Source of the DNA: Deltaproteobacteria bacterium
GTDB lineage: Bacteria; Desulfobacterota; Desulfomonilia; UBA1062
Reading direction: 5' to 3'
DNA length: 32,457 nt
Assembly: GCA_018434685.1 (NCBI GenBank)
Contig: JAHDOV010000038.1
Span: 1 to 32,457, forward strand
In this document: one piece after another, positions 7,612 to 31,359 of the stretch
Layout: each line of letters starts with the position of its first letter
How positions within the stretch are numbered: the first letter of the stretch is position 1
The notes under the pieces: model-generated
Database searches by the model: none
The model's input: only the letters and a program-made list of their open reading frames with translations
Told to the model about the DNA's origin: nothing
Translations under genes and position numbers: made by a program

Positions 7612-8775
7612 TCACTGACCGATGAACACGGGAATGCTCCTGTTGATGGTGGTGCCGTCCCCGAGCTGCCCCTGGGAATTCTGGCCCCAGGCAAAGAGCG
7701 CACCCTCGGACTTGAGCGCAAGGGTATAGCCGGCTCCGGCACTGACCTGGGCCCAGTCCGTATCGGAATTCACCGGGATAGGGGTATCACTCTCTTCGCC
7801 GGTGCCGTCCCCGAGCTGTCCGGAGGCGTTAGCCCCCCATGCCCAGAGCGTATGGTCGTCCTTGATCGCGCAGGTGTGGCTTCCGCCGGCGCTGACCTGG
7901 GCCCAGTCGGTATCGGTATTCACCGGCACCGGGACAGTACTGTCTTCCAAGGTGCCATCCCCGAGCTGGCCGGAGGCGTTGGACCCCCATGCCCAGAGCG
8001 TGCCGTCGGCCTTCAGTGCACAGGTATGGCTTCCACCGGCGCTGATAGAGACCCAGTCGGTGTCGGCATTCACCTGCACCGGGGAACTCCTGTCCAGACG
8101 GTCACCGATACCGAGCTGGCCTTGCGCGTTCGCGCCCCACGTCCAGATGGTTCCATTCTCCTTGAGGGCAGCGGTGTGCGAAAATCCGGCACTCACTGCG
8201 ATCCAGTCCGAGTCTGCCCCGACCTGTACCACGGCGTTCCGGCTCTGCAGCGTGCCGTCTCCGAGCTGGCCGGAAGCGTTATATCCCCAGGCCCAGAGGG
8301 TGCCGTCCGAGCTGACCCCAACACTATGATAGCTGCCTGCGCTGAAGCTGTTCCAGGTAATGTCGGAGAAGACTCTCTCCGGTTTCTTTTTGCCCGATCC
8401 GGTACCGTCTCCGAGCTGACCGTATAGGTTGAATCCCCATGACCAGAGGAATCCGATGGGCTTCTGTGCAAGGCTGTGAAGGCCGCCTGCGCTCACGGCT
8501 ACCCAGTCGTTGTCAGTGCCCGCCTGGACAGGGGCGTTCTTTGACCGCCAGGTGCCGTCTCCGAGCTGGCCCTCGTCGCTACGGCCCCATGCCCACAAGG
8601 TGCCGTCGGTCTTTACCGCAAGACTGTGCCATTGCCCGGCGCTGATGCCGGACCACACGATGATCTCCTCGCCCGCGGCCGTATCATCATCGTCGTCATC
8701 ATCTTCGAAATAGGAACACCCTGCAGCCATGGCGAGAAAAAGGACCAGCAAGAGCCATTGCAGCTGAGATTTCAT
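7612..8775 (-). CDS. RCC1-repeat lipoprotein with seven-bladed propeller
   Basis: A lipoprotein signal peptide (MKSQLQWLLLVLF..., lipobox AAGC at residues 17-20) is followed by SYFE and seven consecutive Asp residues. The remainder is seven RCC1/alpha-tubulin-suppressor repeats of about 50 aa, each with SAG-x3-H/Y-(S/T) and WGxNxxGQLGDGT signatures. Seven repeats are exactly one propeller, so the gene appears complete. The +2 residue is Ser, compatible with outer-membrane retention. The start is ATG 8775, with GAGGAGGG (8781-8788) 5 nt upstream; the TTG five codons earlier lies inside that site. Function is unknown; RCC1 propellers usually mediate protein binding. It is transcribed divergently from the clostripain-like gene. 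Confidence 0.88.
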   Translation of the reverse strand: MKSQLQWLLLVLFLAMAAGCSYFEDDDDDDDTAAGEEIIVWSGISAGQWHSLAVKTDGTLWAWGRSDEGQLGDGTWRSKNAPVQAGTDNDWVAVSAGGLHSLAQKPIGFLWSWGFNLYGQLGDGTGSGKKKPERVFSDITWNSFSAGSYHSVGVSSDGTLWAWGYNASGQLGDGTLQSRNAVVQVGADSDWIAVSAGFSHTAALKENGTIWTWGANAQGQLGIGDRLDRSSPVQVNADTDWVSISAGGSHTCALKADGTLWAWGSNASGQLGDGTLEDSTVPVPVNTDTDWAQVSAGGSHTCAIKDDHTLWAWGANASGQLGDGTGEESDTPIPVNSDTDWAQVSAGAGYTLALKSEGALFAWGQNSQGQLGDGTTINRSIPVFIGQ

Positions 8776-9244
8776 TCGATCCCTCCTCAATGGTAATTGT
8801 CTTCAAATTCACAGGAGAAATAATCATGGAGAACATCAACAATCGGTATGAAGTATGCAACATTCATGCAAAACTAAACGTATTATAATCATTTCACATT
8901 TGAATCATGTCTTGCTAACCTGCCGTGAATATTAGTAAAATATTTCCAACAGGGGGGAAATATTTTTCACCTTTTTCGGTGCACCCTTATTTGCTCACCT
9001 CAGTAGTCTGTTATGTCGTGGGCTCTTCGATATTATTGAAGAATGTGGGCAGGGGTGACCACCTCGTGTTCGATCTGCGCATAAAGGGCGTTGTGCTGTG
9101 ATGAAGAATGCAGTTGCTTTATCATGGGTATTTTGATTGGTATGAGAGATTATCCTGGGGAAGGTGGCCTTCAGGGCGCTGGGTTTCCATAAGAGCAGGG
9201 GCACATGAACCCATGAAGAAGGAAAGGCAGGTGGGACGATAGCC
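8776..9244. other. Divergent intergenic region with AT-rich hairpin
   Basis: This 469-bp region separates two divergent lipoprotein genes and has no credible gene. An ATTATAAT palindrome at 8882-8889 gives a TATAAT -10-like hexamer on both strands (8882-8887 minus, 8884-8889 plus), but I see no convincing -35 on either. An 11-bp perfect stem, AAAATATTTCC (8937-8947) with GGAAATATTTT (8956-8966), surrounds an 8-nt loop. It could be an operator or a terminator-like structure. Confidence 0.4.
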
Positions 9245-16972: not shown

Positions 16973-17605
16973 TAGATCAGCTGTTTTCCAGGTGAAGTAT
17001 GGAATACCATGTGGGGTGGATAACCACAGTTCTGATAAACTCAGGTTCCTGCCTCGATGGAGACGACATAGTAAGGACATATCGTGTGAGGTGCACAATC
17101 GTGGTTAGCAAATGGGTTGGGGTACAGTGGGATTTCTGGTCTGATCTCATGCCATATCTTATAGTTGTGAAATAATATGTGTGAACAGAAGATAGCGACC
17201 TGGTATAAATAGTGATGTGTGAGTTTCGAATAATGATTACCTATGCTGGAGTGGAAAATCTTTACGGATTGTGGGCAAAAGATTTCCTTGTGAAGGCATC
17301 ATTTTTATCCCAGTGCTCTAGCGATACCGAGCTATATGAAACGATAAGGACTGCAGGAGTGCCTCTTTTTTGTAATAAATCAGGTGGTTGACAGGCCTTC
17401 AATGGTCATCTTGAAAAGCATTCAGATCGTCGGAATAGATATTGCTATGGACGTAACTAGTTAGTATGAGTATGATTAAAGAGTAATGATAGTTCATTAT
17501 TAAGACACGTGGTGGAGGGCCGGGTTGATTTTGATTGTATCCGGCGTATTTTATCCTGATGTGGTTTGACTGGAGCGAGAAACCTTCCGTCGTGATGCAT
17601 AGATA
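16973..17605. other. Gene-free AT-richer region
   Basis: About 630 bp between the REP element and the large lipoprotein gene. It is more AT-rich than its surroundings and has no open frame that I can support on either strand. TTGACA at 17387-17392 is a possible -35, but no convincing -10 follows at the right distance. It may be eroded sequence plus the leader of the downstream gene. Confidence 0.35.
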
Positions 17606-20059
17606 ATGGGGATGATGCCAATGAGACAACAGAGACTGCACAGGTGGTTCCTTGTTTTCTTTCTTCTGCTTATTTTGTCTGCGTGCTCCGGGAGCAGCAG
17701 TACGGACGAGGAGATCGCTGGAGCTGAGTCGATATACGACCCCGAGGCCTCAGTGGGAGCGGTGAGCTTTGCTGATGCCTGTGGCATAGAAGTGTTCATG
17801 CTGGGTGAAAACGATGAATACCTGGAGCTGCAGGATGGAACCTATGTCGAGCCGGGGGTAAGGAAAATTGGCATACGGCTCGATGATGAAACCGATGTTG
17901 ACAGGATTTTCTTTTCTGACGGGGGCGTGTATCAGGTCGAGGCATTCAAACAGGGGGATCTCTATAGTGCGGATTTCAACGTCAGCGAAGAGAGCCTCTA
18001 CCAGAATATTCTTGTCCAGGTTATCCATTCCAATGGGCGGGCCAGCAAAGAAAAGGTCGTACTGAGGACTGTCCGGCAGGATTTTGAAGACCAGTATATA
18101 AAAAATGGAGTGGGGCTGCTCATCTCTCGAGAGATTCTCGATGGGCAGCGCTATGCCCTGGCTGAGCAGCTCGATGGGATTGTCCGGGACGTATTCCGGA
18201 ATATCTTATCGCAGGGGTCTGGCCTTTTCACGGACCTGGGTTATGGAGATGCCGATCCGGCTACCATTGATATCGATGTGGTGACGTTGAGGCCGCTGAG
18301 CACACAAACTCGGCCGCAGGCAGTGTTCCAGGTATCCCTGATCGTGCAGGATGTCCATTTCGAAGCGCTGCCTCTCTACGGGGAAAACCTTGTCACGACA
18401 ACCAACAATGATCTTGCCATGAGTTTTTATCTTGCCATCGAAGATGCAGGTGGGGATGGCAGCATCCATCTGGTCCTGGATTTTTCCAATTCCGTGCAGC
18501 TGAGCTTTCTTCAGGACTTTTTCATGAAGAGCGTCGTGGAAGAAATGCTCATTTCGCAGTTGACCCGGATCGAGCTCCCACCATTCTCCTGTGATCTCTC
18601 CGGCATGGACGATGAGATTATCGCAGCTCTGCCTGAGAATATCCTGGTTAACGGCAACGAGCTCGACCTCGACGTGCTGTTCGACGGCCTCGTTCTCGAC
18701 CTGAACAAATACCTGTTTGCAGATATCTATGGAATTCCGGCTGATACCACAGCAGAGGTGTTGTCTATCGGGCTGGGGTTATACGTTGCTGATTACGATG
18801 AGATCGTGTGGGATTCCTATGATGCTGCGCCGCCCAGCGATGCCCCGGATATCGAAGGAGTTTTCGAGGATCTCTGCGTGAAAGTGGTTAATGCTGCGTT
18901 CGAAAAGAGCAGGCAGACGTATGAAGGGCTTATCACAAAACTCTCTTACGGAGACGATAATCCCACAACGCCTGATTTTATCGTGAACTTCTTTGCACTC
19001 GAAGATACCGGGGAAGAAAACATTAAAACCGTCCACCTCAATTACACCGTAAAGAATGTCGATCTCCAGGCAGTGTCACTCTTTGGATTTTCAGTCATTT
19101 CCACTGAGAACAATGATCTCACCATTGATTCCTCTTTTTTCCTTGAGCACCGGGTCGTAGGCACAGGTGATTGGTTTGTGCTGGCTGTTCAGGATGTCTC
19201 TACGGTTAATTTTGAAGAATATTTTGTGGGCAGGCAGGTCATTGAAGAGATGATCAAAACCGACCTCGCGGATATGGATGCGACCTCGGTTGCTCTTGAC
19301 AATATAATCTCGGATATCGACCTGAACATCGACTTTGCCGCGGTAGTGTATTCCGGGGAAGAAGTGCCGCTTTTCCCGGATGTTTCGCCTTACACTGCAT
19401 CACCCACGTGGGAGCTTGTTCTGTCCACCCCCTATAATATTGCCGGTGCTATCTCTCAGCATAATATCAACTGGGTGATGGCAGCCCTGCTGGATCAGGG
19501 CGTCCAATGGGATGTCTATGAAGTGCTCGTTGCCCTACTGGGGGAGGATTTTGATGGCTTCAATCCGGAAAGATCGCAGGACGGGCAGACCATACTGCGG
19601 CTGAGTGTACCCCCTGTGATCGATGTGAGGACTGCTCAGATTCGGGTGCTGGTCAATGATGTCATCCTCCAGTACCTGATCAGCGGAGAGCCCCAGTGGG
19701 AGGTATCGGTGGACCTGGATCTCGTTGTCGAGCCCAGGGTCGAGGGTGGTAAATTGAATTTTTACCTGACCCAGATCCCTCAGAACAATCATTTCCATGT
19801 CATGCGGGACAACCCCGGCAACCTCGGGATATTTGATCATTCTTCGCTGGTGAGTGACGTCCTTGAGAGTCTTCCACAGATGCTGGGAGGAGAGCAGGGG
19901 GATCCGCTCATTTCGTTCGACCTCGATGCCTTTGGCCCCGAGGTAGTCTTTGAAGATATTGACACGCCACTGGAGGTGTCGGCCGGTGGCGGTTATCTGT
20001 ATTTTGGCGGTGCTGTTTCACGGCTGGATTTAAAGTGGTTCCTAGAGCAGGGGCTATGA
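17606..20059 (+). CDS. Large lipoprotein with internally duplicated domain
   Basis: The product (817 aa from ATG 17606; ATG 17621 gives 812 aa and may be better, with GGGGA upstream) has a signal peptide and lipobox LSAC followed by SGSSSTDEE. Two copies of a ~160-aa domain are visible, offset by about 235 residues. The first has LGYGDADP near 213 and TTTNNDL; the second has LSYGDDNP near 448 and STENNDL, with matching VQDVHFEALPLYG and VKNVDLQAVSLFG strands between and VVEEMLISQL/VIEEMIKTDL helices after. The C-terminal third, with AISQHNINWVMAALLDQGV near 615, weakly recalls lipid-binding TULIP/BPI-type domains. No family is firmly recognised. It lies upstream of the RND-LolA-OMP operon. 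Confidence 0.8.
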   Translation: MGMMPMRQQRLHRWFLVFFLLLILSACSGSSSTDEEIAGAESIYDPEASVGAVSFADACGIEVFMLGENDEYLELQDGTYVEPGVRKIGIRLDDETDVDRIFFSDGGVYQVEAFKQGDLYSADFNVSEESLYQNILVQVIHSNGRASKEKVVLRTVRQDFEDQYIKNGVGLLISREILDGQRYALAEQLDGIVRDVFRNILSQGSGLFTDLGYGDADPATIDIDVVTLRPLSTQTRPQAVFQVSLIVQDVHFEALPLYGENLVTTTNNDLAMSFYLAIEDAGGDGSIHLVLDFSNSVQLSFLQDFFMKSVVEEMLISQLTRIELPPFSCDLSGMDDEIIAALPENILVNGNELDLDVLFDGLVLDLNKYLFADIYGIPADTTAEVLSIGLGLYVADYDEIVWDSYDAAPPSDAPDIEGVFEDLCVKVVNAAFEKSRQTYEGLITKLSYGDDNPTTPDFIVNFFALEDTGEENIKTVHLNYTVKNVDLQAVSLFGFSVISTENNDLTIDSSFFLEHRVVGTGDWFVLAVQDVSTVNFEEYFVGRQVIEEMIKTDLADMDATSVALDNIISDIDLNIDFAAVVYSGEEVPLFPDVSPYTASPTWELVLSTPYNIAGAISQHNINWVMAALLDQGVQWDVYEVLVALLGEDFDGFNPERSQDGQTILRLSVPPVIDVRTAQIRVLVNDVILQYLISGEPQWEVSVDLDLVVEPRVEGGKLNFYLTQIPQNNHFHVMRDNPGNLGIFDHSSLVSDVLESLPQMLGGEQGDPLISFDLDAFGPEVVFEDIDTPLEVSAGGGYLYFGGAVSRLDLKWFLEQGL

Positions 20060-20141
20060 GGTTGCCAAGGAATGAAATATCTGCGCCTGGGAATAAGCAT
20101 GCATTTGTTTCTGGGGATACATCCTGTCCAACCTGCCCGAA

Positions 20142-20221
20142 TTGTAGGGGCGGCTTCAGTCGCGATTGGGCAGGGCCGTAGTTTGGAGGAGATGGAGTCG
20201 CCGCTGAACCGGCTCCTACAG
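20142..20221. repeat. Two-armed REP element (BIME type)
   Basis: The left arm TTGTAGGGGCGGCTTCAGTC is slightly degenerate. The core GTAGTTTGGAGGAGATGGAG and right arm GCTGAACCGGCTCCTACAG are nearly identical to the copy at 14473. It lies 82 bp after the large lipoprotein gene. Confidence 0.85.
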
Positions 20222-20329
20222 TTGATCTGTGATAACTGTGCAGCGTATTTCATGAGGCACCTGGTAACCGTGCAGCGGGTGTATATTCTCATGCCTGTTC
20301 GATCTCAGGTTGAACGGTAAAAAATGACA

Positions 20330-20358
20330 TTTACAAGGGGGAGATTTAATACTATAAA
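20330..20358 (+). promoter_or_regulatory. Sigma-70-type promoter of the RND/LolA/OMP operon
   Basis: TTTACA (20330-20335; 5/6 match) and TATAAA (20353-20358; 5/6 match) are separated by exactly 17 nt. The predicted start near 20365 gives a leader of about 230 nt before the permease ATG. Confidence 0.6.
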
Positions 20359-20364
20359 TACGAT

Positions 20365-20593
20365 AATGACTCTTCATTACTTTGAAATGCATTAACATTA
20401 TAGGGGATGGGAAGACCAAGGCCTTTAACAGAAGCAAATATATTTGGAAGCAAGTGGTAATGAAAATACATTACCGAATATTAAATGTTATTATGGAAAA
20501 GGAGGGGCTGGTGGACTCGTTAGGTAATTGGAAACATTTTACTATGAGGGCAGGGGGAATGTTATCCGGATATTTCTCGGGGAGAAACGGCCT
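20365..20593 (+). other. Long AT-rich leader with possible coupled small ORF
   Basis: The predicted 5' leader of the permease operon is AT-rich and matches no riboswitch I recognise. A small open frame (ATG 20493, 34 codons; or ATG 20559, 12 codons, preceded by a GGGGG-rich site) ends at the TGA of 20595-20597. It thus overlaps the permease ATG as ATGA. This could couple permease translation to upstream reading, or it could be fortuitous. GGAG (20581-20584) is the permease's own ribosome-binding site. Confidence 0.35.
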
Positions 20594-23014
20594 ATGAAGA
20601 AGATCATTGCATTCAGCGTGTATCATCCGTACTGGGTAATTGCTGTTGTGCTCGGCATTACGGTCTTCTTTCTCGTTCAGATTCCAAACATAAAGATCGA
20701 CCCCCGTGTCGAGATCGTGCTGCGCGACAATAATCCCGTGGAAGAGGTGTGGAATGAGAACAAGGAGGATTTCGAAGCCTATGCCGATATTCTGGTCGGC
20801 ATGCTGCACACTGATATCTACCAGACGGGATCCCTGAAGAAGATTAAATCCATATCCGAGGAAATTGAGCAGATCAAAGGGGTGAAAAAGGTCACCAGCA
20901 TTCTCAATGTCAAGAATATTGTGGGCAGTGAGTCTGGTCTCGATGTCTCACCCATGGTGGAAGACGGGGAAGTTCCCCAGGGCGCTGAGGCCCTGGCTGA
21001 ACTGAGAAACAAGGCAGACAACTGGGAGGTGTATCAGGGTGCCTATGTCACGAGCGACGGCAAGGGCACTGCCATATCGGTCGTTCTGGACAGCGAGGTG
21101 GAGACCGACGAGATCGTGCCCATCTACTACACCCTCTTAGAGATCATGAAGAAGTATGAAGGCCCTGAAAAGTTCTTCATCTCGGGGCAGACCGTGGTGG
21201 AGGCATTACAGGGGCATTACATGATAAAGGATCTGAAGCTGTTGATCCCCCTGGTTACCGTGGTGCTGTGTGGCTTCCTCTTCCTGTTTTTCAGAAATAT
21301 CAGGGGAATGCTGCTCCCGCTCGTCGGGGTCGGGATCTCGTCGATCTGGACGGTGGGGCTCATGCCGATGCTGAATATCCCGCTGACCATGGTCACGAGC
21401 GTCTTGCCGGTAGCACTGATGGCTGTTGGGTCTGCCTACGGAATCCATGTGCTGGAAAATGTCTTTTCCGACGCGGCAGAGGGCAAACAGGGTACCGAAG
21501 GTATAATCAGCGCGCTCAACAGGGTGAGTCTCCCGGTGATCATGGCAGGATTCACCACGATCGCGGCGTTCATTTCACTGTGCACTTCGGCCATTGTGCC
21601 GCTCAAACAGTTCGGGGCACTTTCCGGCTTCGGACTCCTCGTCGCTGTATCCATATCCCTGACCTTCCTTCCCGCAATCCTCTCCGTGCTCGATTCCAGG
21701 GGCAAGGCGTATGTTCCTCATCATCATTCGAACAAGGATATCATCGGTCCACTGCTTCGGTGGTTTTCCCGTGTCAGCATCACCAGGAGCAGGCTGATTC
21801 TCGGCATCAGCGTGGTGCTGTTTGTGCTTTCGGTCATGGGCGGTATGCTGGTGAAGAGTGATTTGAATCTCATCGAAGATTTCCGCAAGGGAAGCCCCAT
21901 ACGGGTTGCCGATGAGATCCTCAACGAAAGGTTCGGCGGCACCTCGCTTTTCAATGTGGTCCTCAGCGGGGTTGAACCCGATGACATGAAAGACCCTGCC
22001 GTGCTTCGGGACATGGAGCGCCTCCAGGCTGAACTTATGAAACTCGAGAACATCGGCAAGGCGGTTTCCATCGTTGATTTCATCAAGAGGATGAACCAGG
22101 CGATGCACGATGGCGACCCTGCATACTATGTGATTCCCGAATCCAAGGACCTGATCGCGCAATACCTGCTGCTCTTTTCCTTTTCAGGGGGGAGCGGTGA
22201 ACTGGACAGCTTTGTGAACTTCGATTTTGAAAACGGTCAGATTCTCCTGCAGATGAAATCACAAAGCGGCTACCTCGCGCAGAGGGTCGAGGATACTGTC
22301 AGCAGCTTCAAGGGCAGCTCGCTCTCTACTCCGCTCGTTGACGACATCTTCACCACCGGCCTGGCAATGCTTGCCAAGGAGTTCAACCGCCTGGTGGTAC
22401 AGAGCCAGTTCCGGAGCTTCTCCGTGTCGCTGGTCCTGGTGATCCTCATTGTGACGCTGACCTTCAGGTCCTTCAAGCTCGGGGTATACAGTGTGTTTCC
22501 GCTCATCGTGCCGATTGTGTTCAACTTCGGGATCATGGGCATTTCCGGCATACAGCTCAATGCAGCAACAGCGATTATCGCGAGCCTCGCCATCGGAATC
22601 GGCATCGACTACTCCATTCATTTTCTGAGCCGGTACCGGCACGAGATCGCCCTTCGCAACGATGTGAAGCGGGCCATCGATGTATCGCTCAAAACATCAG
22701 GCCGGGCCATCCTGTACAATGCGCTTACCGTCGCAGCCGGCTTCCTCGTCCTGATTCCCTCAAACTTCATTATCATCAGCCAGCTGGGCATCCTGGTGGC
22801 CTTGGTCATGATCACCACGTCGCTCGCTTCGATCACCATACTGCCTGCCATGCTCATGGTGTTTCCCCCGAAACTCGTCAAGGATGCTGTTGCGATTCCC
22901 GTGACCGAGGTTCCCCTGCGGCTGGTTCCACAAGGTGGTTCATCCCAGCGGGCAAACGTGGTAGGATGTAAGGATAAAATCGATCAGAAAAATTATGATA
23001 GGGGGGTTCAATAA
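20594..23014 (+). CDS. RND/MMPL-superfamily inner-membrane permease
   Basis: The 806-aa protein has the classic duplicated 6+6 RND topology. There is one helix near the N-terminus (YWVIAVVLGITVFFLVQI), a periplasmic domain, five helices between about 220 and 380, a second N-type helix (LILGISVVLFVLSVMG), a second periplasmic domain, and five C-terminal helices. LAIGIGIDYSIHFLSRYRHE is the conserved MMPL/SSD-type motif in transmembrane helix 10. Such permeases move lipids or other hydrophobic molecules using proton-motive force. The start is ATG 20594, with GGAG 9 nt upstream. Its stop overlaps the next gene's start (TAATG), so it is the first gene of a three-gene operon. Confidence 0.9.
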   Translation: MKKIIAFSVYHPYWVIAVVLGITVFFLVQIPNIKIDPRVEIVLRDNNPVEEVWNENKEDFEAYADILVGMLHTDIYQTGSLKKIKSISEEIEQIKGVKKVTSILNVKNIVGSESGLDVSPMVEDGEVPQGAEALAELRNKADNWEVYQGAYVTSDGKGTAISVVLDSEVETDEIVPIYYTLLEIMKKYEGPEKFFISGQTVVEALQGHYMIKDLKLLIPLVTVVLCGFLFLFFRNIRGMLLPLVGVGISSIWTVGLMPMLNIPLTMVTSVLPVALMAVGSAYGIHVLENVFSDAAEGKQGTEGIISALNRVSLPVIMAGFTTIAAFISLCTSAIVPLKQFGALSGFGLLVAVSISLTFLPAILSVLDSRGKAYVPHHHSNKDIIGPLLRWFSRVSITRSRLILGISVVLFVLSVMGGMLVKSDLNLIEDFRKGSPIRVADEILNERFGGTSLFNVVLSGVEPDDMKDPAVLRDMERLQAELMKLENIGKAVSIVDFIKRMNQAMHDGDPAYYVIPESKDLIAQYLLLFSFSGGSGELDSFVNFDFENGQILLQMKSQSGYLAQRVEDTVSSFKGSSLSTPLVDDIFTTGLAMLAKEFNRLVVQSQFRSFSVSLVLVILIVTLTFRSFKLGVYSVFPLIVPIVFNFGIMGISGIQLNAATAIIASLAIGIGIDYSIHFLSRYRHEIALRNDVKRAIDVSLKTSGRAILYNALTVAAGFLVLIPSNFIIISQLGILVALVMITTSLASITILPAMLMVFPPKLVKDAVAIPVTEVPLRLVPQGGSSQRANVVGCKDKIDQKNYDRGVQ

Positions 23015-23796
23015 TGAAGTGGAATGGTACGGGGCTCGGTTTCATCTGTTTGTGCATCGTCATGGCAGCTGCTCCCTGCATGAGTGCGGACATGACTGCC
23101 TATGAGATCGTCAAGAAGTCGGAAGACCTGCTCGATCAGGCAAAAGACTCCCAGACGGATATTCTGATGACCCTCGTGAACAAGAAGGGGCAGACGAGGG
23201 AAAGGACCCTGAGCGCCTCTGTGAAGAAATACGAGGACGACAGCTCGAAATCGCTGCTCTTCTTCAACTCACCCGCCGATGTCAAGGGGACCAGCTTCCT
23301 TGTCTGGACCGACGAGAGTAAGGATGACAAACAGTGGCTCTACCTGCCTGCCCTGCAGCGGGTGAGGCAGATCAGCTCGAGCGGCAAGGGCGAGAGCTTT
23401 ATGGGGACAGAGTTTACCTTCTTCGACATGGGAAGCCAGGATATCGATGACTACACCTTCACCCTCCTGAAGGAAGAAGACTTCGATGGTGAGCAGTGCT
23501 ATGTGATCGAGGCGATCCCCAAAGAGGTGGAGTTCTACAACAAGATCACCATCTGGATTCGCAAGGGCAATTTCATCCCGGCCAAGGCCGATTTCTACGA
23601 CACAAAGGGCGAATACCTCAAACAGGGATTGTTTGCCAACGTTAAGAATATCCAGGGGATAAATACCCCGACCCATATCGAGATGAAAAATGTCCAGAAC
23701 TCCCGAACCACCATACTCGAGCTGAGTAATATCGTTTATGATACGGGCCTGAAAGACGATATATTTACCGAGAGATACATGAAGAGAGGTAAATAG
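23014..23796 (+). CDS. LolA-like periplasmic outer-membrane lipoprotein-sorting protein
   Basis: The 260-aa product has a Sec signal peptide (MKWNGTGLGFICLC..., cleavage near CMSA-DMTA). The mature part resembles the LolA/LolB-like fold proteins annotated as outer-membrane lipoprotein-sorting proteins. Typical features are PADVKGTSFLVW, QWLYLPALQRVRQISSSGKG and SFMGTEFTFFDM. These proteins form half-barrels that carry lipids or lipoproteins across the periplasm. Linkage to an RND permease and a large outer-membrane protein is common in Desulfobacterota and suggests a transport route from inner to outer membrane. It is coupled to the permease gene by a TAATG overlap. True LolA function is not implied. 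Confidence 0.88.
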   Translation: MKWNGTGLGFICLCIVMAAAPCMSADMTAYEIVKKSEDLLDQAKDSQTDILMTLVNKKGQTRERTLSASVKKYEDDSSKSLLFFNSPADVKGTSFLVWTDESKDDKQWLYLPALQRVRQISSSGKGESFMGTEFTFFDMGSQDIDDYTFTLLKEEDFDGEQCYVIEAIPKEVEFYNKITIWIRKGNFIPAKADFYDTKGEYLKQGLFANVKNIQGINTPTHIEMKNVQNSRTTILELSNIVYDTGLKDDIFTERYMKRGK

Positions 23797-23799
23797 TCG

Positions 23800-25311
23800 T
23801 TGAAGACCCCTGGGGCTCTCCTGGTTGTGTTGCTGTGCTGGGTGCTTTTCCCGGTGCGCGTGGATGCCTACGAATATGAGGGCGAGAGCCTCATGCTTGC
23901 GCTCAGCGGCCATCTTGAGAGCGGCGCAGTGTACGAGTTCGACCAGGACACCCCGAATGAAGATCCCTCGAGCGAGCTGGGGATCGACTTCAAGGCGGAC
24001 ATGGGATCGGTTTCGTCGTTCAAGCTCCTGCTTCGGGCCAGGGATGACGGCAAAGTCATCGACCCGGGGAATACCCGGCTCTTTAACGAGTTCGACCGGA
24101 TATACCAGGACAAGAATCCCTTTATCGATGTGGAGGAGGCATATGTTGATTTCTTCACCAGCTATGTGGACCTCAGATTCGGCATCCAGAAATTTGCCTG
24201 GGGAAGGCTCGATGAGATCAATCCGACCGACAATCTCAACACCGAGGATCTCACCCAGGGGGGCACCAACGACGAGAGCGAAAGGAAGATCGGGGTGCCT
24301 GCAGCAAAGGCAAATGTCTATTCAGACTTTGTAAATCTCGAGCTTGCCTGGATCCCCAAGTATGTCCCATACCGGCTTCCAACCCCCGAAGAGAGATGGT
24401 TTCCCGGCATACTCAAGGCGCCTGAAGTCATCGAGACAGCTACCGCGGCTGGGAACATCCCGGTCACCCCGGTGTATGAGGATATCGACCTCTCCGGGTC
24501 AGGTTTCAAGTATTCGGAATACGGCATACGCCTTTCCCGGTATATTGCCGGGTGTGATATCTCACTGAGCTATTTCCGGGGATACGACATGATGCCCGTT
24601 ACCAGTGCGCCGACCGATGTCACCGTCGTGCTGGAGGATCTTCTGGCACTGGATTATTCCATCTCCGCCGAGGTGACCTACATCCCGGAGATCTACAAGA
24701 TGAACGTATACGGGCTCGATTTCACCACGACCGTGGGGTCGTTCACGCTTCGGGGTGAATATGCCTACTTTCAGAACAAGCACTTTAACAGGAAGTTCTC
24801 TTCCGTACTGAAGGATGAGCTCACCCAGGAGCGGCAGGATGCCATCATGGATGAGTTCCTGGATCGGTACCTGGACACGGAAGATCCCCAATCCTCCACG
24901 ACGGTCCGCATTGACCCGCAGGTCGCCCTGCAGGAGGATTCCATGAAGTATGGCCTGGGTGTGGATTATATTTACGGGGATACGAGCGTGAGCGTCCAGT
25001 TCATCCAGGAATATGTGCCCGACTTTGACAATGACAAACCCGTATACTTTATCAAGGATGGGTTCGACACTCTCGTTACGCTCTCCTTCAAGCAGTTTTT
25101 CCTCCAGAACACATTCGAGGCCAACCTGGATGGCGCCTATGACTTGGAGTTCAAAGACTATATCATCAAACCCTCGGTCAGGTATAAGTTCACCGAAACG
25201 CTCCAGCTGACTGCCGGGGTAATAGTGCTGGACGGCAAGGAAGATGATTCACTACTCGGACAATACCGGGACAACGACGAGGTGTATGCGAAACTGAGGT
25301 GCTATTTTTAA
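23800..25311 (+). CDS. Outer-membrane barrel protein (DUF1302-like), third gene of the operon
   Basis: The 503-aa product starts at TTG 23800, 3 bp after the LolA-like gene; AGAGG lies about 10 nt upstream. A signal peptide (MKTPGALLVVLLCWVLFPV..., cleavage near DA-YEYE) precedes many amphipathic strands. VDFFTSYVDLRFGIQKFAWG followed by DEINPTDNLNTEDL is characteristic of DUF1302-type outer-membrane proteins found beside RND permeases. The C-terminus ends in aromatic YAKLRCYF, as expected for a barrel. It is the likely outer-membrane component of a transport route with the two upstream genes. A strong terminator follows 32 bp later. Confidence 0.82.
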   Translation: MKTPGALLVVLLCWVLFPVRVDAYEYEGESLMLALSGHLESGAVYEFDQDTPNEDPSSELGIDFKADMGSVSSFKLLLRARDDGKVIDPGNTRLFNEFDRIYQDKNPFIDVEEAYVDFFTSYVDLRFGIQKFAWGRLDEINPTDNLNTEDLTQGGTNDESERKIGVPAAKANVYSDFVNLELAWIPKYVPYRLPTPEERWFPGILKAPEVIETATAAGNIPVTPVYEDIDLSGSGFKYSEYGIRLSRYIAGCDISLSYFRGYDMMPVTSAPTDVTVVLEDLLALDYSISAEVTYIPEIYKMNVYGLDFTTTVGSFTLRGEYAYFQNKHFNRKFSSVLKDELTQERQDAIMDEFLDRYLDTEDPQSSTTVRIDPQVALQEDSMKYGLGVDYIYGDTSVSVQFIQEYVPDFDNDKPVYFIKDGFDTLVTLSFKQFFLQNTFEANLDGAYDLEFKDYIIKPSVRYKFTETLQLTAGVIVLDGKEDDSLLGQYRDNDEVYAKLRCYF

Positions 25312-25913: not shown

Positions 25914-28900
25914 TCAGCTCAAAGACAACAAATACGACCGCAGATTGGCCTTTTCCTTCTTCAATCCGAGCTTGTCCCTGATATTGTTTCGGTGGAACTC
26001 GATCGCCCGCTTCGAGATATTCAACAGATCTGCAATCTCCTTGGTCGATTTTCCCTCCCGCACGAGATTGGCCACCTGGATCTCGGTCGGGGTGAGGTTC
26101 ACGTATTGTGATGAGAGTTTCTGCAGGAATGGCGAGATGATGTCATTGAGGTTGGATTCGAGAATCGACACATAGAGCATCTGTTTGGTATCGAGTTCGC
26201 CCTGCTTCAATTTTTCAAGATAGGGCAGGGCGAGTTCCCTGATGTTGGAGAGCACCTTTTCCTCGAGCTCGTTCTTATCCTGCTCTCCCCGTTTCAAAAG
26301 GACCTTGAGCGCGGTATTTGCCTCCTCGAGGTTCAACGACTTGATCTTCAGCTCCTCTTCTTTCTGCAGCAGAGATTCCTGGGCTGCCTTGCGCTCCTCC
26401 ACCTCTTTTTTCAGCCGGATATTTGCCCGCACCAGCTCTTCTGTCCGGTCCTCGACGCGCTGCTCGAGGCTTTCGTATGCCCGCTGCAGTTTCTGATCGG
26501 TGAGTTTGCGTTCAGTGATGTCCACGAAAGAACACATCAGGCAGATCGGCCTGCCGTCATCGTTAGTCACCATGTTTGCCGAGAGTTGGACAGCGATCGG
26601 CGTGCCGTTTTTCTTCGTGGCAATGATCTCGCCGAACCAGTTTCCTTTTTTGTAGACCATCTCCAGGATGTTCAGGGCATCTTCCTCGGATTGGGCAAAG
26701 GAGAGCGCGGATTTGCCGAGCACCTCGGACTCGTGTTTCCCTCCCCACAGGCGGAGAAAGGCCTCGTTCACATAGGTGATGTTTCCCTCCAGGTCGCCGA
26801 TGGCAATGCCGTTGATCGACGAGGCAATGGCACTGTCTTTTACCCGGAGTTCTTCTTCCATATCTTTCCTGTCCGTTATATCGACAAATGAGTCCATCAT
26901 GCAGATGGGTTCGCCCTTTTCATTCTTCACGAGGCTTGCCGAGAGGTGGAGTGTAATGGGGGTGCCGTCTTTCCGGAAACCCGATACCTCACCTGACCAA
27001 CTCCCTTTTTCGAGGATTGCCTGGTAGATGGCAAGTGCCTCTTCTTCGGATTGTGCAAGCTCGAGAGCCGATCTCCCGAGCACCTCCAAAGGGTCATGAG
27101 CCCCCCACATCGTGAGGGCGGCCTCGTTCACATAGGTGATATTCCCGGCGAGGTCGGCGATGCCGATGCCCTGGACTGAAGAGGCGATGGCATAATCCTT
27201 GATGCGGAGTTCCTCTTCCATGCGCTTGCGGTCGGTGATGTCGACAAAGGAATCCATCATGCAGATTGGCTCGCCCTTTTCATTTTTTACGAGACTTGCC
27301 GAGAGGTGGACCGTAATGAGCGAACCGTCTTTTCTCCTGCCGGTGATCTCTCCAGACCAGCCGCCTTTTTCAATGACCTCGGCATATACCCTGATTGCCA
27401 CTTCTTCTGACTGTGCCAGCTCGAGGGCGGATTTCCCGAGCATTTCAGAGGCGTCTTCAGCGCCCCACATCCTGAGGGCGGCCTTGTTCACATAGGTGAT
27501 ATTGCCGGCGAGGTCGGCGATGCCGATGCCCTGAACAGAGGAGGCAATGGCAAAATCCTTGATCTGGAGTTCTTCCTCCATGCGTTTGCGCTCGGTGATG
27601 TCGACAAAGGAATCCATTATGCAGATGGGCTTGCCCTGTTCATTTTTCACCATGCTGGCAGAGAGCAGCACGGTAACCGGAGAACCGTCTTTCCGAAAGC
27701 CCGAGACCTCGCCTGACCAGCTTCCCTTGTCCAGAATGGCCTGGTATATCTCCAGGGCCTCTTCCTCCGACTGTGCCAGATCGAGGGAGGATCTTCCGAG
27801 CACTTCAGAGGCATCTTCATCGCCCCACATCTTGAGTGCCGCGTCGTTTACATAGATGATATTTCCCTCGAGATCCCCAATGCCGATGCCGTCGATGGAG
27901 GCAGCTATGGCACTGTCTTTAATCCGCAGCTCGTTCTCCATATGCTTGCGCTCGGTGATGTCTACAAACGAACACATGATACATATGGGTTCACCCTTCT
28001 CGTTCTTCACCAGGTTTGCCGAGAGCAGGACCGTAAAGACTGATCCGTCCTTTCTCTTGCCCGATATCTCCCCGGACCAGCTTCCCTTGGCGAGGATTAT
28101 CTGTATGATCTCAAGGGCCTGCTGTTCTGACTGAGCAAACAGTGCAGCTGACTCACCGAGAACCTCAGATGGGTCATCGCTTCCCCAGAGCTTAAGCACC
28201 GCATCGTTTATATAGGTTATTCTGCCATCGAGATCTGCTATGACGATGCCGTTCATGGAGGACGATATGGCAAAATCCTTGATCCTGAGCTCTTCCTCCA
28301 TGCGCTTACGCTCGGTGATATCGACGAAGGAGTCCATGGTGCAGATTGGCTCACCCCGGTCGTTCTTCACCACGTTCGCCGAAAGGAGAACGGTTATGGC
28401 AGAGCCGTCCTTCCTCTTTCCGGTCACCTCGCCGGACCATTTGCCGTTTTCGAAGAATTCATGAAAGATCTTCAGTGCCTCTTCTTCAGAGCGGGCGAAC
28501 TCCAGGGCAGACTTTCCGAGCACATCCGAGGCATCTGCGGCGCCCCACATCCTGAGCGCAGCATCGTTCACATAAATGATATTTCCTTCGAGATCGCCGA
28601 TGCCGATGCCATATATGGCAGAGGCAATGGCGCTGTCTTTTACGCGGAGTTCCTCTTCCATACGCTTGCGATGGGTAATATCCACGAAAGAACACATCAG
28701 GCAGATGGGTTTGTTTTTCTCATTGCGGACCAGGCTTGCAGAGAGGAGCACGGTAATGGCAGAGCCATCTTTTTTCCTGCCGGTGATTTCTCCTGCCCAT
28801 TCTCCTTTTTTCAGGACTGTGTCCATGATCTCGATGGCTTCTTTCTCTGACTCGGCAAAGACCGTGGCGGGATTTCCAAGGATCTCTTTTGGATCATCGC

Positions 28901-29087
28901 TTCCCCACATGGCAAGCGCTGCCTTGTTCACATAGGTTACAATGCCGTTGAGGTCACCGATAGCAATGCCGTTTAGGGACGATGCGATTGCGAAATCCTT
29001 GATGCGAAGTTCTTCTTCAATCTGTTTAAGCTCGGTAATCTGATCCTTCAGCGGTTTTGACTCTTTAGTTAGCTTCTTTCCCGGCAC
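25914..29087 (-). CDS. Seven-PAS, LuxR-type soluble sensor-regulator
   Basis: The ~1,060-aa cytoplasmic protein has no transmembrane segment and no histidine-kinase domain. Counting from ATG 29096, seven PAS/PAC units start at residues 27, 147, 267, 387, 507, 627 and 747, each exactly 120 aa (360 nt). Each has EEL-(R/Q)-(I/V)-KD at its start, then G-I-(A/G/V)-I-(G/A)-DL, TYVN/IYVN, W-(S/A/F)-GE and SFVDIT near the end. A coiled coil (about 867-945) and helical linker lead to a GerE/LuxR helix-turn-helix (1001-1060: LTPTEIQVANLVREGKSTKE...ISKRAIEFHRNNI). The Shine-Dalgarno AAGGAGG (29097-29103) abuts ATG 29096 but lies 9 nt before in-frame GTG 29087, which I prefer. It probably integrates ligand or redox signals to control transcription. 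Confidence 0.93.
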   Translation of the reverse strand: MPGKKLTKESKPLKDQITELKQIEEELRIKDFAIASSLNGIAIGDLNGIVTYVNKAALAMWGSDDPKEILGNPATVFAESEKEAIEIMDTVLKKGEWAGEITGRKKDGSAITVLLSASLVRNEKNKPICLMCSFVDITHRKRMEEELRVKDSAIASAIYGIGIGDLEGNIIYVNDAALRMWGAADASDVLGKSALEFARSEEEALKIFHEFFENGKWSGEVTGKRKDGSAITVLLSANVVKNDRGEPICTMDSFVDITERKRMEEELRIKDFAISSSMNGIVIADLDGRITYINDAVLKLWGSDDPSEVLGESAALFAQSEQQALEIIQIILAKGSWSGEISGKRKDGSVFTVLLSANLVKNEKGEPICIMCSFVDITERKHMENELRIKDSAIAASIDGIGIGDLEGNIIYVNDAALKMWGDEDASEVLGRSSLDLAQSEEEALEIYQAILDKGSWSGEVSGFRKDGSPVTVLLSASMVKNEQGKPICIMDSFVDITERKRMEEELQIKDFAIASSVQGIGIADLAGNITYVNKAALRMWGAEDASEMLGKSALELAQSEEVAIRVYAEVIEKGGWSGEITGRRKDGSLITVHLSASLVKNEKGEPICMMDSFVDITDRKRMEEELRIKDYAIASSVQGIGIADLAGNITYVNEAALTMWGAHDPLEVLGRSALELAQSEEEALAIYQAILEKGSWSGEVSGFRKDGTPITLHLSASLVKNEKGEPICMMDSFVDITDRKDMEEELRVKDSAIASSINGIAIGDLEGNITYVNEAFLRLWGGKHESEVLGKSALSFAQSEEDALNILEMVYKKGNWFGEIIATKKNGTPIAVQLSANMVTNDDGRPICLMCSFVDITERKLTDQKLQRAYESLEQRVEDRTEELVRANIRLKKEVEERKAAQESLLQKEEELKIKSLNLEEANTALKVLLKRGEQDKNELEEKVLSNIRELALPYLEKLKQGELDTKQMLYVSILESNLNDIISPFLQKLSSQYVNLTPTEIQVANLVREGKSTKEIADLLNISKRAIEFHRNNIRDKLGLKKEKANLRSYLLSLS

Positions 29088-29138
29088 CGGCCACATCCTC
29101 CTTGAATAGCTAATGTATTAATAAAGCCATACGGCTTG

Positions 29139-29168
29139 TATAGGCTGTAGGCTATAGGCTGAAGGCTG
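29139..29168. repeat. Heptamer tandem repeat
   Basis: Four near-identical 7-bp units, TAGGCTG, TAGGCTA, TAGGCTG and AAGGCTG, run directly up to the stop codon of the S23-type gene remnant. They are related to the CTGTAGG half of the 15-bp unit found upstream of both gene copies. Confidence 0.6.
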
Positions 29169-29296
29169 TTAGTTCTTGCGCATTGATCGAAGCAGCGCAC
29201 CCAGAACCTTCTCTGTCTCCACGATTCTTGATTCGCAGCCGGAAATATTGCGGTCATCAGCCAGTTCAAACACCCTGAGATTGTATGATCCCGCAT
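29169..29296 (-). pseudogene. Deleted copy of the adjacent S23-type four-helix-bundle gene
   Basis: The first ~40 bp and last ~85 bp match the intact gene at 29414-29770, but the middle is missing. The junction (TCATCA at 29254-29259) corresponds to two TCATCA copies in the intact gene (29499-29504 and 29727-29732), 228 bp apart. A further 1-bp loss near the start shifts the frame. Together these give 229 bp, which is exactly the difference between 357 and 128 bp. It ends at the same codon position (GCGCAAGAACTAA). The gene is non-functional. Confidence 0.85.
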
Positions 29297-29310
29297 CCCC
29301 TCCCCTTCAG

Positions 29311-29401
29311 CCTAAATCCCTACAGTCTAAATCCCTACAGTCTAAATCCCTACAGTCTAAATCCCTACAGTCTAAATCCCTACAGTCTAATTTCCCTGCA
29401 G
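29311..29401. repeat. 15-bp tandem repeat array
   Basis: Five consecutive 15-bp units, the last four identical TCTAAATCCCTACAG and the first differing by one base, are followed by a degenerate sixth of 16 bp. On the minus strand it reads CTGTAGGGATTTAGA and runs into the G-rich start region of the gene remnant (about 14 bp away). A degenerate version precedes the intact gene at 29776-29846. The units are contiguous, with no unique spacers, so this is not a CRISPR array. Confidence 0.9.
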
Positions 29402-29413
29402 CCTAAAGTTCTG

Positions 29414-29770
29414 TTAGTTTTTGCGCATTGATCGAAGCAGTGCGCCTAAAACCTTCTCTGTCTCCAGAATCTTTGATTCACAGCCGGATATGTCATGGTC
29501 ATCAAAATACCCCAGGCGCTTTGACAGGCCAACTTGATAATGCAACTCCCTTAAGGAACCGAATGCTATTTCAAGAAAACGTAGATGCTCGGCCTGGCTC
29601 TCACGTGCACATCCCTCAACGATGTTTGATGGAACTGAAACAGCCGCTCTTCTCATTTGGGAACTCAACCCATATATTTCCTCCTTGGGGAATTCCCTGG
29701 TTGCCTGATAGATCAGAAGCACCACTTCATCAGCCAGTTCAAATGCCCTGAGTTTCGTGTGATCACGCAT
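29414..29770 (-). CDS. S23/four-helix-bundle protein (23S rRNA intervening-sequence type)
   Basis: The 118-aa product matches the small four-helix-bundle family first found encoded in 23S rRNA intervening sequences. Signatures are KLRAFELADEVV near the N-terminus, REFPKEEIYGLSSQMRRAA, then SVPSNIVEGCARES and a C-terminal helix ending LLRSMRKN. It is free-standing here, not inside an rRNA gene. Family function is not settled; relatives form pentameric helical bundles and include the Avd accessory protein of diversity-generating retroelements, but no reverse transcriptase or variable repeat is seen here. G-rich AGGTGGGGG abuts the ATG. A deleted tandem copy lies just downstream on the same strand. 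Confidence 0.9.
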   Translation of the reverse strand: MRDHTKLRAFELADEVVLLIYQATREFPKEEIYGLSSQMRRAAVSVPSNIVEGCARESQAEHLRFLEIAFGSLRELHYQVGLSKRLGYFDDHDISGCESKILETEKVLGALLRSMRKN

Positions 29771-29775
29771 CCCCC

Positions 29776-29846
29776 ACCTACATTCTAAAAGTCTTCATCC
29801 TAAAAGCCTACAGTCTAAACACCTACAGTCTAAATGCTTACAGCCT
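29776..29846. repeat. Degenerate 15-bp repeat array upstream of S23-type gene
   Basis: On the minus strand successive units read CTGTAAGCATTTAGA, CTGTAGGTGTTTAGA, CTGTAGGCTTTTAGG and ATGAAGACTTTTAGA, then ATGTAGGTGGGGG directly before the start codon. These are diverged forms of the 15-bp unit at 29311-29401, in the same place relative to the gene. Confidence 0.75.
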
Positions 29847-30330: not shown

Positions 30331-31359
30331 TCAAAACTCCATCACAAGCCCGATCATAACAGACGACACGCATACATTGTTGAAGACCCCTATTTCCAAA
30401 GGGTCCTCATAACTCCACGTAGAGAGATCAGAGCCCTCATACCAGGCAGGATTGGCTGTCTTATACGATATCTCAAGGATAGGATCAAACTGCTGCAGAT
30501 TATAGAACCCGGTATTGAATTCTGCAACAAGCCTGAAATTGTTCTTCAGAGGAATTTCAACGCCGGCCAGGAAGTTGAGGAGCGTGCCGGTGACCACTTG
30601 AGATTTATCAAGATCGATCCTGTATTCCGGTCCTTCGAAGGATTCTTCCTTAATGGCCCTGCTCTTGACCTCGCGCCGGGCAATGCAGAACCCCAACCCC
30701 CCGCCGACATAGGGGTTTACCTTCTCCTCCTTATGAATCCAGTATTTTGCATTGAGGGTTATGGGGAGAAGAAACAGGGTGGTTTCGATATCGATGCTCT
30801 GGAGAGATTCAGCACTGGTAATGAGTGCTTCACCGCCTCCGAAATAGCTCTGGCCGAGATTTACATCAGGCAAATCTTCCGCTGTTATTACTTCTCCCTC
30901 ATCCGGAACAAATCCGGGAAAATACTCCTCTGCCGCAGCCTGGATGGATTCCCTGTCGCCGCCTGTCCGCCACTTTCCCTTCAGCATGATAAGATCAATA
31001 GCAACTGTCACAGAGATGTTTTCTTTCATTCTCTTTTCCAACCCGAGCGAGACTATGGCACCATAGTCCAGAAACTCCCTGAACTCCTTATCATAGTTTG
31101 CCATTGAAGCCCCTGCTTTAATGAAGTTCGTCAGATCCTTTTTCTGAACAGTTGGCTCTGTTTGGGGGATTGTTAATGGTGTGGGCTCATTTTGGGGAGG
31201 GATAGGGGTGGTTTCTGAGTGGTATTGACCAAGATTGTATTGAGTCACTCCTATAACAGCATCAGATGCCGGCTTCTGTGGAGTTGTTTCCTGTTGAGCA
31301 CAAATATCCTGGGTGAAGATTAATAAGAAAGCTATCGACAAGAGAATAACTTTTTTCAT
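30331..31359 (-). CDS. Outer-membrane beta-barrel protein, unknown function
   Basis: The 342-aa product has a Sec signal peptide (MKKVILLSIAFLLIFTQ..., cleavage near CAQ-QET). A Pro/Thr-rich linker (TPIPPQNEPTPLTIPQTEPT, about residues 50-70) follows. From about residue 75 the sequence alternates in barrel fashion, with NPYVGGGLGFCIARREVKS in the middle and LLNFLAGVEIPLKNNFRLVA later; both are typical of small OmpA-like/OmpW-like barrels. It ends MIGLVMEF, with the C-terminal Phe of a barrel. The start is ATG 31359, with AGGAGCGGGGA upstream. I cannot assign a specific family or ligand. It is monocistronic as far as can be seen. Confidence 0.75.
   Translation of the reverse strand: MKKVILLSIAFLLIFTQDICAQQETTPQKPASDAVIGVTQYNLGQYHSETTPIPPQNEPTPLTIPQTEPTVQKKDLTNFIKAGASMANYDKEFREFLDYGAIVSLGLEKRMKENISVTVAIDLIMLKGKWRTGGDRESIQAAAEEYFPGFVPDEGEVITAEDLPDVNLGQSYFGGGEALITSAESLQSIDIETTLFLLPITLNAKYWIHKEEKVNPYVGGGLGFCIARREVKSRAIKEESFEGPEYRIDLDKSQVVTGTLLNFLAGVEIPLKNNFRLVAEFNTGFYNLQQFDPILEISYKTANPAWYEGSDLSTWSYEDPLEIGVFNNVCVSSVMIGLVMEF

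Follow-up and report, generated by a model that had tools for sequence, protein, structure and literature searches.

The reading that best explains our observations jointly, to which we give a probability of roughly 0.55, is that the PAS–LuxR gene studied here encodes a one-component regulator built on an old array of PAS units, in which stable ends enclose a middle that turns over, two classes of unit carry out the sensing, and a neighbouring barrel gene is the target. The gene lies in a window of 32,457 nucleotides, the whole stretch of contig JAHDOV010000038.1 (assembly GCA_018434685.1, Deltaproteobacteria bacterium) that was analysed. The features of the window are collected in Table 1.

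Architecture of the seven-PAS LuxR regulator

The open reading frame 25914-29096 on the reverse strand amounts to 1060 aa when counted from ATG 29096. A GGAGG box directly abuts this ATG, whereas GTG 29087, three codons later, is properly spaced from the box and aligns with the starts of the orthologues. GTG 29087 is thus the probable start, and ATG 29096 the less likely one. The PAS units begin at aa 25, 145, 265, 385, 505, 625 and 745 (ATG numbering), a spacing of 120 that holds six times with 0 indels, and direct DNA repeats at 360 nt run across the array. Using Pfam, we found PAS_9 in seven stretches of the protein (E 2e-106) and GerE near the C-terminus (E 2.3e-13), the latter with 50 bits against a cut-off of 23.5, which places the protein in the LuxR/GerE family. 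The seven-unit array is real, and chance is excluded.

No histidine kinase family (HisKA/DHp, ATPase) matched the protein in Pfam, nor did the family lists of 25 C-terminal relatives contain one. The protein's Pfam matches include no receiver domain, so it does not classify as a response regulator, and hydropathy reveals no membrane segment (highest 19-residue value 1.30). A preliminary description of this DNA had proposed a gapless seven-PAS array fused to LuxR, free of kinase, receiver and membrane segment and passing signals directly from PAS to the DNA-binding domain. This layout is borne out: seven units of exactly 120 aa are followed by GerE, with no other output domain.

An AlphaFold model of two units (5-6; pLDDT 91, pTM 0.66) shows PAS folds linked by one helix (117-134), and a Foldseek search with it matched the PAS-helix-PAS structures MmoS (TM 0.74), DosP (E 1.6e-17), NifL and FixL, as expected of a PAS fold. 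The C-terminal model has a helix of ~105 residues, an antiparallel helix forming a hairpin, and a LuxR fold. We considered whether the hairpin is a relic kinase DHp and rejected this, as HisKA gave no match and the fold search had nothing but LuxR proteins in its best 50. The same coil-hairpin-LuxR end is present on PAS and GAF proteins throughout the phylum, and the array therefore sits on a common local chassis.

A further repeat-bearing gene in the window, at 7612-8790, encodes an RCC1-repeat protein with seven RCC1 stretches; its 150-nt tandem DNA repeats are ~78% identical.

Table 1. Features of the window and related sites
Feature	Position	Strand	Remark
Seven-PAS LuxR regulator gene	25914..29087	(-)	1057 aa from GTG 29087; ORF opens at ATG 29096
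PAS unit 1, class A (A21, C111)	28665..29024	(-)	positional orthologue of unit 1 in genus g4 relatives
PAS unit 2, class B (G21, D111)	28305..28664	(-)	
PAS unit 3, class A (V21, C111)	27945..28304	(-)	
PAS unit 4, class B	27585..27944	(-)	
PAS unit 5, class B	27225..27584	(-)	nearest to unit 6 (80% aa, 78% DNA)
PAS unit 6, class B	26865..27224	(-)	
PAS unit 7, class A (A21, C111)	26505..26864	(-)	positional orthologue of last unit in g1, g4 and g10 orthologues
Predicted ~105-residue helix and antiparallel helix (hairpin), last PAS to LuxR	26100..26504	(-)	no Pfam name; conserved in many of the phylum's PAS-LuxR proteins
LuxR/GerE helix-turn-helix domain	25956..26099	(-)	aa 1000-1047
Four-helix-bundle (23S rRNA IVP/TIGR02436) gene	29414-29770	(-)	within element 29139-29843; between barrel and PAS-LuxR genes
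Outer-membrane beta-barrel protein gene	30331..31359	(-)	OmpW/OMP_b-brl-like, weak match; upstream, same strand as PAS-LuxR gene
Convergent envelope cluster	17606..25311	(+)	817-aa lipoprotein-like, HAE3 RND transporter (20528-23014), LolA-like (23014-23796), 503-aa predicted barrel
Palindrome sites TAATGA-N4-TCATTA	17484-17499, 20364-20379		also L122:5251, L123:5061, L125:5023, L127:1436, L128:6134 and 6274

Age and divergence of the array

Unit pairs within the window array are 58–80% identical in amino acids and 63–78% in DNA. Third codon positions are 36–59% identical between units, which is near saturation, and identical residues are written with the same codon in 37–62% of cases, against 42% expected under random codon choice. 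The longest exact run between units is 29 nt, and a shuffle test of identical-codon runs found no conversion tract in the window gene that is significant after correction (smallest p 0.01 over 21 pairs). Because the units have diverged this far in DNA, with third positions near saturation and no significant tract, we read the window array as old, neither young nor visibly homogenised at present. With identity this low, short-read collapse is also no threat to the count of seven.

Of the checks proposed in the preliminary description, the unit-by-unit DNA identity matrix, with the values given above, speaks against a recent array. A search of the own genome turned up no other gene with the same 120-aa unit, and proteins that match the PAS region in part do so at 21–39% identity. 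A contrasting case in the same class is a histidine kinase of genome G028 (L050:1-4332, reverse strand), in which seven gapless 124-aa PAS units within a ten-PAS protein share 83–95% aa identity. This array, judged by its unit identities, is a truly recent PAS amplification.

Unit number, spacing and turnover in orthologues

We compared orthologues in a family of 24 genomes. Complete arrays hold seven units in G014, six in G002, G005, G015 and G023, and three in G007, so the proposal that unit number varies holds; the arrays of G012, G019, G021 and L065 are interrupted by a contig end or a gap, and G009 and G011 show the LuxR end only. All adjacent unit spacings in the orthologues (44/44) are exactly 120 aa, whereas the spacing in other multi-PAS proteins of this class mostly varies from 119 to 132. 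Since old units keep 120 aa in all orthologues, the lack of indels over 2.5 kb is better explained by a constraint on linker-helix register together with turnover of whole units than by recency. Such a register may reflect a need to hold the linker helices in phase.

In a unit tree built on 120 alignment columns, in which few branches are starred, one group (92) gathers the final units of the window array, of G002, of G014 and of the g4 genomes, the first unit of the window array groups with the first units of g4, and a single clade (97, starred) holds the middle units, with the same-genome groups G014 4-6 and G023 4-5 inside it. Reciprocal best matches give a similar picture. The preliminary description had reasoned that ancient, stable repeats would each be most similar to their positional counterparts; units 1 and 7 mostly are, but most middle units are not. 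A codon-run test of the relatives identified exact inter-unit tracts of 50–82 nt, significant after correction in G007 (units 2-3, 25 identical codons, p<0.0005) and nominal in G005 (units 3-4, 22 identical codons, p 0.001), G014 and G015. These comparisons show that the ends of the array are stable and that the middle turns over, through whole-unit recombination and short gene conversion, over species time.

In five relatives the assembly is interrupted within the PAS-LuxR gene, by a break or by a gap (L131 at its end, L132:1-270, L067, L069 and L038), and short-read unit counts in this family therefore need care.

Two classes of PAS unit

Two alignment positions, 21 and 111, divide the units of the window and the orthologues into two classes with no mixed unit (51/51); this pairing, judged from the alignment, is not repeated independent covariation and gives no evidence of repeated co-change, because the class split largely follows one deep, old divergence. 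Class A has A or V at 21 with C, A or G at 111 (28 units), and class B has G or T at 21 with D, Y or N at 111 (23 units). In place of the seven similar sensors described earlier, the window array thus has two residue classes in the order ABABBBA. The order is AABBBBA in G014, AABBBA in G005, G015 and G023, ABBBBA in G002 and AAA in G007.

In a profile alignment, position 21 corresponds to Ser39 of NifL and position 111 lies two residues before His133. Both NifL residues have been reported to line the FAD cavity (PMC12540587), and residues 21 and 111 are accordingly putative pocket-lining residues here. The full set of NifL-type FAD residues (Ser39, Glu70, Asn102, Tyr110, His133) is not present, as the alignment gives A/V/G21, mostly A53, G82 (A82 in unit 7), I/V/F90 and F113. 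The LOV photo-adduct cysteine motif of the E-alpha helix is absent, cysteines occurring only at 108 and, in class A, at 111. For a FixL/DosP-type haem histidine in the F-alpha helix, no histidine is common to the units. With all these residues missing, we rejected flavin and haem sensing; the ligand is therefore not a standard flavin or haem.

Neighbouring genes

The outer-membrane beta-barrel gene upstream was found in 10 of the 24 genomes, which are exactly those in which the full search found the array gene, and it is adjacent in 10/10, at a distance of ~130-180 bp from the PAS-LuxR gene in 6/10. In G009 and G011, the LuxR end lies at a contig end and the upstream side falls outside the contig. 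The co-occurrence follows in part from adjacency and shared descent. A search for a conserved operator upstream of the barrel gene found none; the dyads shared there occur only as pairs in close relatives and carry no information. In the window, the two genes are separated by an IVP gene that is flanked by 15-bp repeats TTTAGACTGTAGGGA, with a second, decayed and internally deleted copy at ~29166-29300. The genome carries 14 copies of the 13-mer TTTAGACTGTAGG, spread over the window contig and 6 others.

The convergent envelope cluster on the other side of the PAS-LuxR gene is similar to AmeABCD, an HAE3 RND system that serves monoterpene tolerance in Castellaniella (PMC6394551). Only three copies of the palindrome TAATGA-N4-TCATTA are present in the genome of 4.29 Mb (0 for the reversed control); one precedes the 817-aa gene, one the RND gene, and the third stands by a TetR gene and two acyl-CoA dehydrogenase genes. 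Relatives repeat this pattern, G002 at the cluster genes, G007 at the TetR/dehydrogenase locus and G005 at both.

Alternative readings

One rival reading, which follows the preliminary description, has the array arise by recent tandem amplification, its units held similar through gene conversion that still goes on and their number setting the sensitivity. The perfect 360-nt register, the differing unit numbers of the orthologues, the exact tracts in relatives and the closeness of units 5 and 6, the nearest pair in the window, would fit such a history, but gapless spacing is by itself no proof of recent duplication. The near-saturated third positions and the tract tests led us to reject a recent amplification of the window array, its end units are nearer to orthologues than to neighbouring units, and the truly recent array of G028 is far more uniform. 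Ongoing conversion finds support in the relatives and none in the window gene, and we regard this history as a whole as improbable. Alternatively, most units may bind no ligand and serve as structural spacers that fix oligomer state or rod length, as the helical extensions of the multi-PAS protein PpsR do, with only one or two units sensing. The absence of flavin and haem residues in all units is consistent with spacers, as are the exact spacing of units that have diverged and the fact that three PAS domains of PpsR build dimers to octamers (PMC3949515). However, the putative pocket residues are class-specific across species, a feature for which pure spacers would have no need, and we consider this explanation unlikely, though one to be taken seriously. 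It is quite doubtful that the array is a mixed-sensor rod, in which class A at the ends and class B in the middle would each bind a ligand of its own and the count of B units, altered by between-species recombination, would set the threshold at which a single DNA-binding domain responds.

The regulator might also control the convergent RND-LolA-barrel cluster, with the palindrome before the cluster genes as its site. In 6/6 genomes examined the palindrome stands before the RND gene, and in two it precedes the 817-aa gene (shuffle maximum 2); the cluster adjoins the PAS-LuxR gene in most orthologues. Against this, G000, G005 and G007 have the palindrome outside the cluster, beside a TetR gene and two acyl-CoA dehydrogenase genes, and the cluster does not adjoin the PAS-LuxR gene of G007, where the 503-aa barrel is on another contig. 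We rejected TAATGA-N4-TCATTA as the regulator's own site, as it tracks the TetR/acyl-CoA dehydrogenase locus instead, and control of the cluster by this route seems very improbable. Because of that location outside the cluster, the palindrome is most likely the operator of that TetR, and its distribution suggests a small TetR regulon joining acyl-CoA metabolism to an envelope transporter. We retain the old-array regulator with two-class sensing and a barrel-gene target as the preferred reading.

Proposed mechanism

The protein would be a soluble one-component transcription regulator, in which seven PAS units are stacked via short signalling helices of fixed register and the stack runs into a long coiled coil and then the LuxR-type DNA-binding domain. 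It would most likely act as a parallel homodimer, in which the response of the PAS units to ligand may rotate or displace the predicted coiled coil and thereby determine how the two LuxR domains pair on DNA. Because the two kinds of unit differ in putative pocket residues, they probably read two small, apolar or weakly polar ligands; alternatively, class A may form the coupling ends and class B the sensing body. As judged by linkage, the regulator would most likely act on the outer-membrane barrel gene that lies directly upstream and hence on its own transcript.

Comparison with known systems

The PimM-type PAS-LuxR regulators of Streptomyces, with one N-terminal PAS and the HTH at about residues 117-221 (PMC9774167), likewise fuse a PAS sensor straight to a LuxR-type helix-turn-helix. 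They are short, whereas the window protein, with seven PAS, 1057 aa and a long coil and hairpin, does not belong to the PimM type. PpsR of Rhodobacter, a transcription factor with three PAS and an HTH in which helical PAS extensions drive oligomers (PMC3949515), is also a multi-PAS transcription factor, but its three PAS are diverged and joined to a Q-linker, in contrast to seven one-family units in strict register on a GerE domain. Multi-PAS histidine kinases reach up to 19 PAS in cyanobacteria, and Desulfomonilaceae are PAS-rich (PMC10468136). These kinases share the tandem array, gapless in some cases such as the G028 HisKA protein, but have a kinase output, whereas the window array ends in a DNA-binding domain and its units are far more diverged than those of G028. 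The LOV-HTH protein EL222 carries a PAS-fold sensor on GerE, and by sequence its GerE ranks with the best PDB matches to the C-terminus of the window protein; unlike the single flavin LOV domain of EL222, the window units have no LOV cysteine motif.

A literature search found no paper on tandem PAS with LuxR or on PAS-LuxR proteins of Desulfobacterota. PAS-LuxR fusion (PimM), multi-PAS transcription factors (PpsR) and long PAS arrays in kinases are already known. What is new is a long, fixed-register, two-class PAS array directly on a LuxR domain, with a unit number that varies among orthologues. This natural series of 3, 6 and 7 units, with a fixed 120-aa register and the same output domain, is suited to testing how a signal passes through serial PAS domains and whether the number or the kind of units matters.
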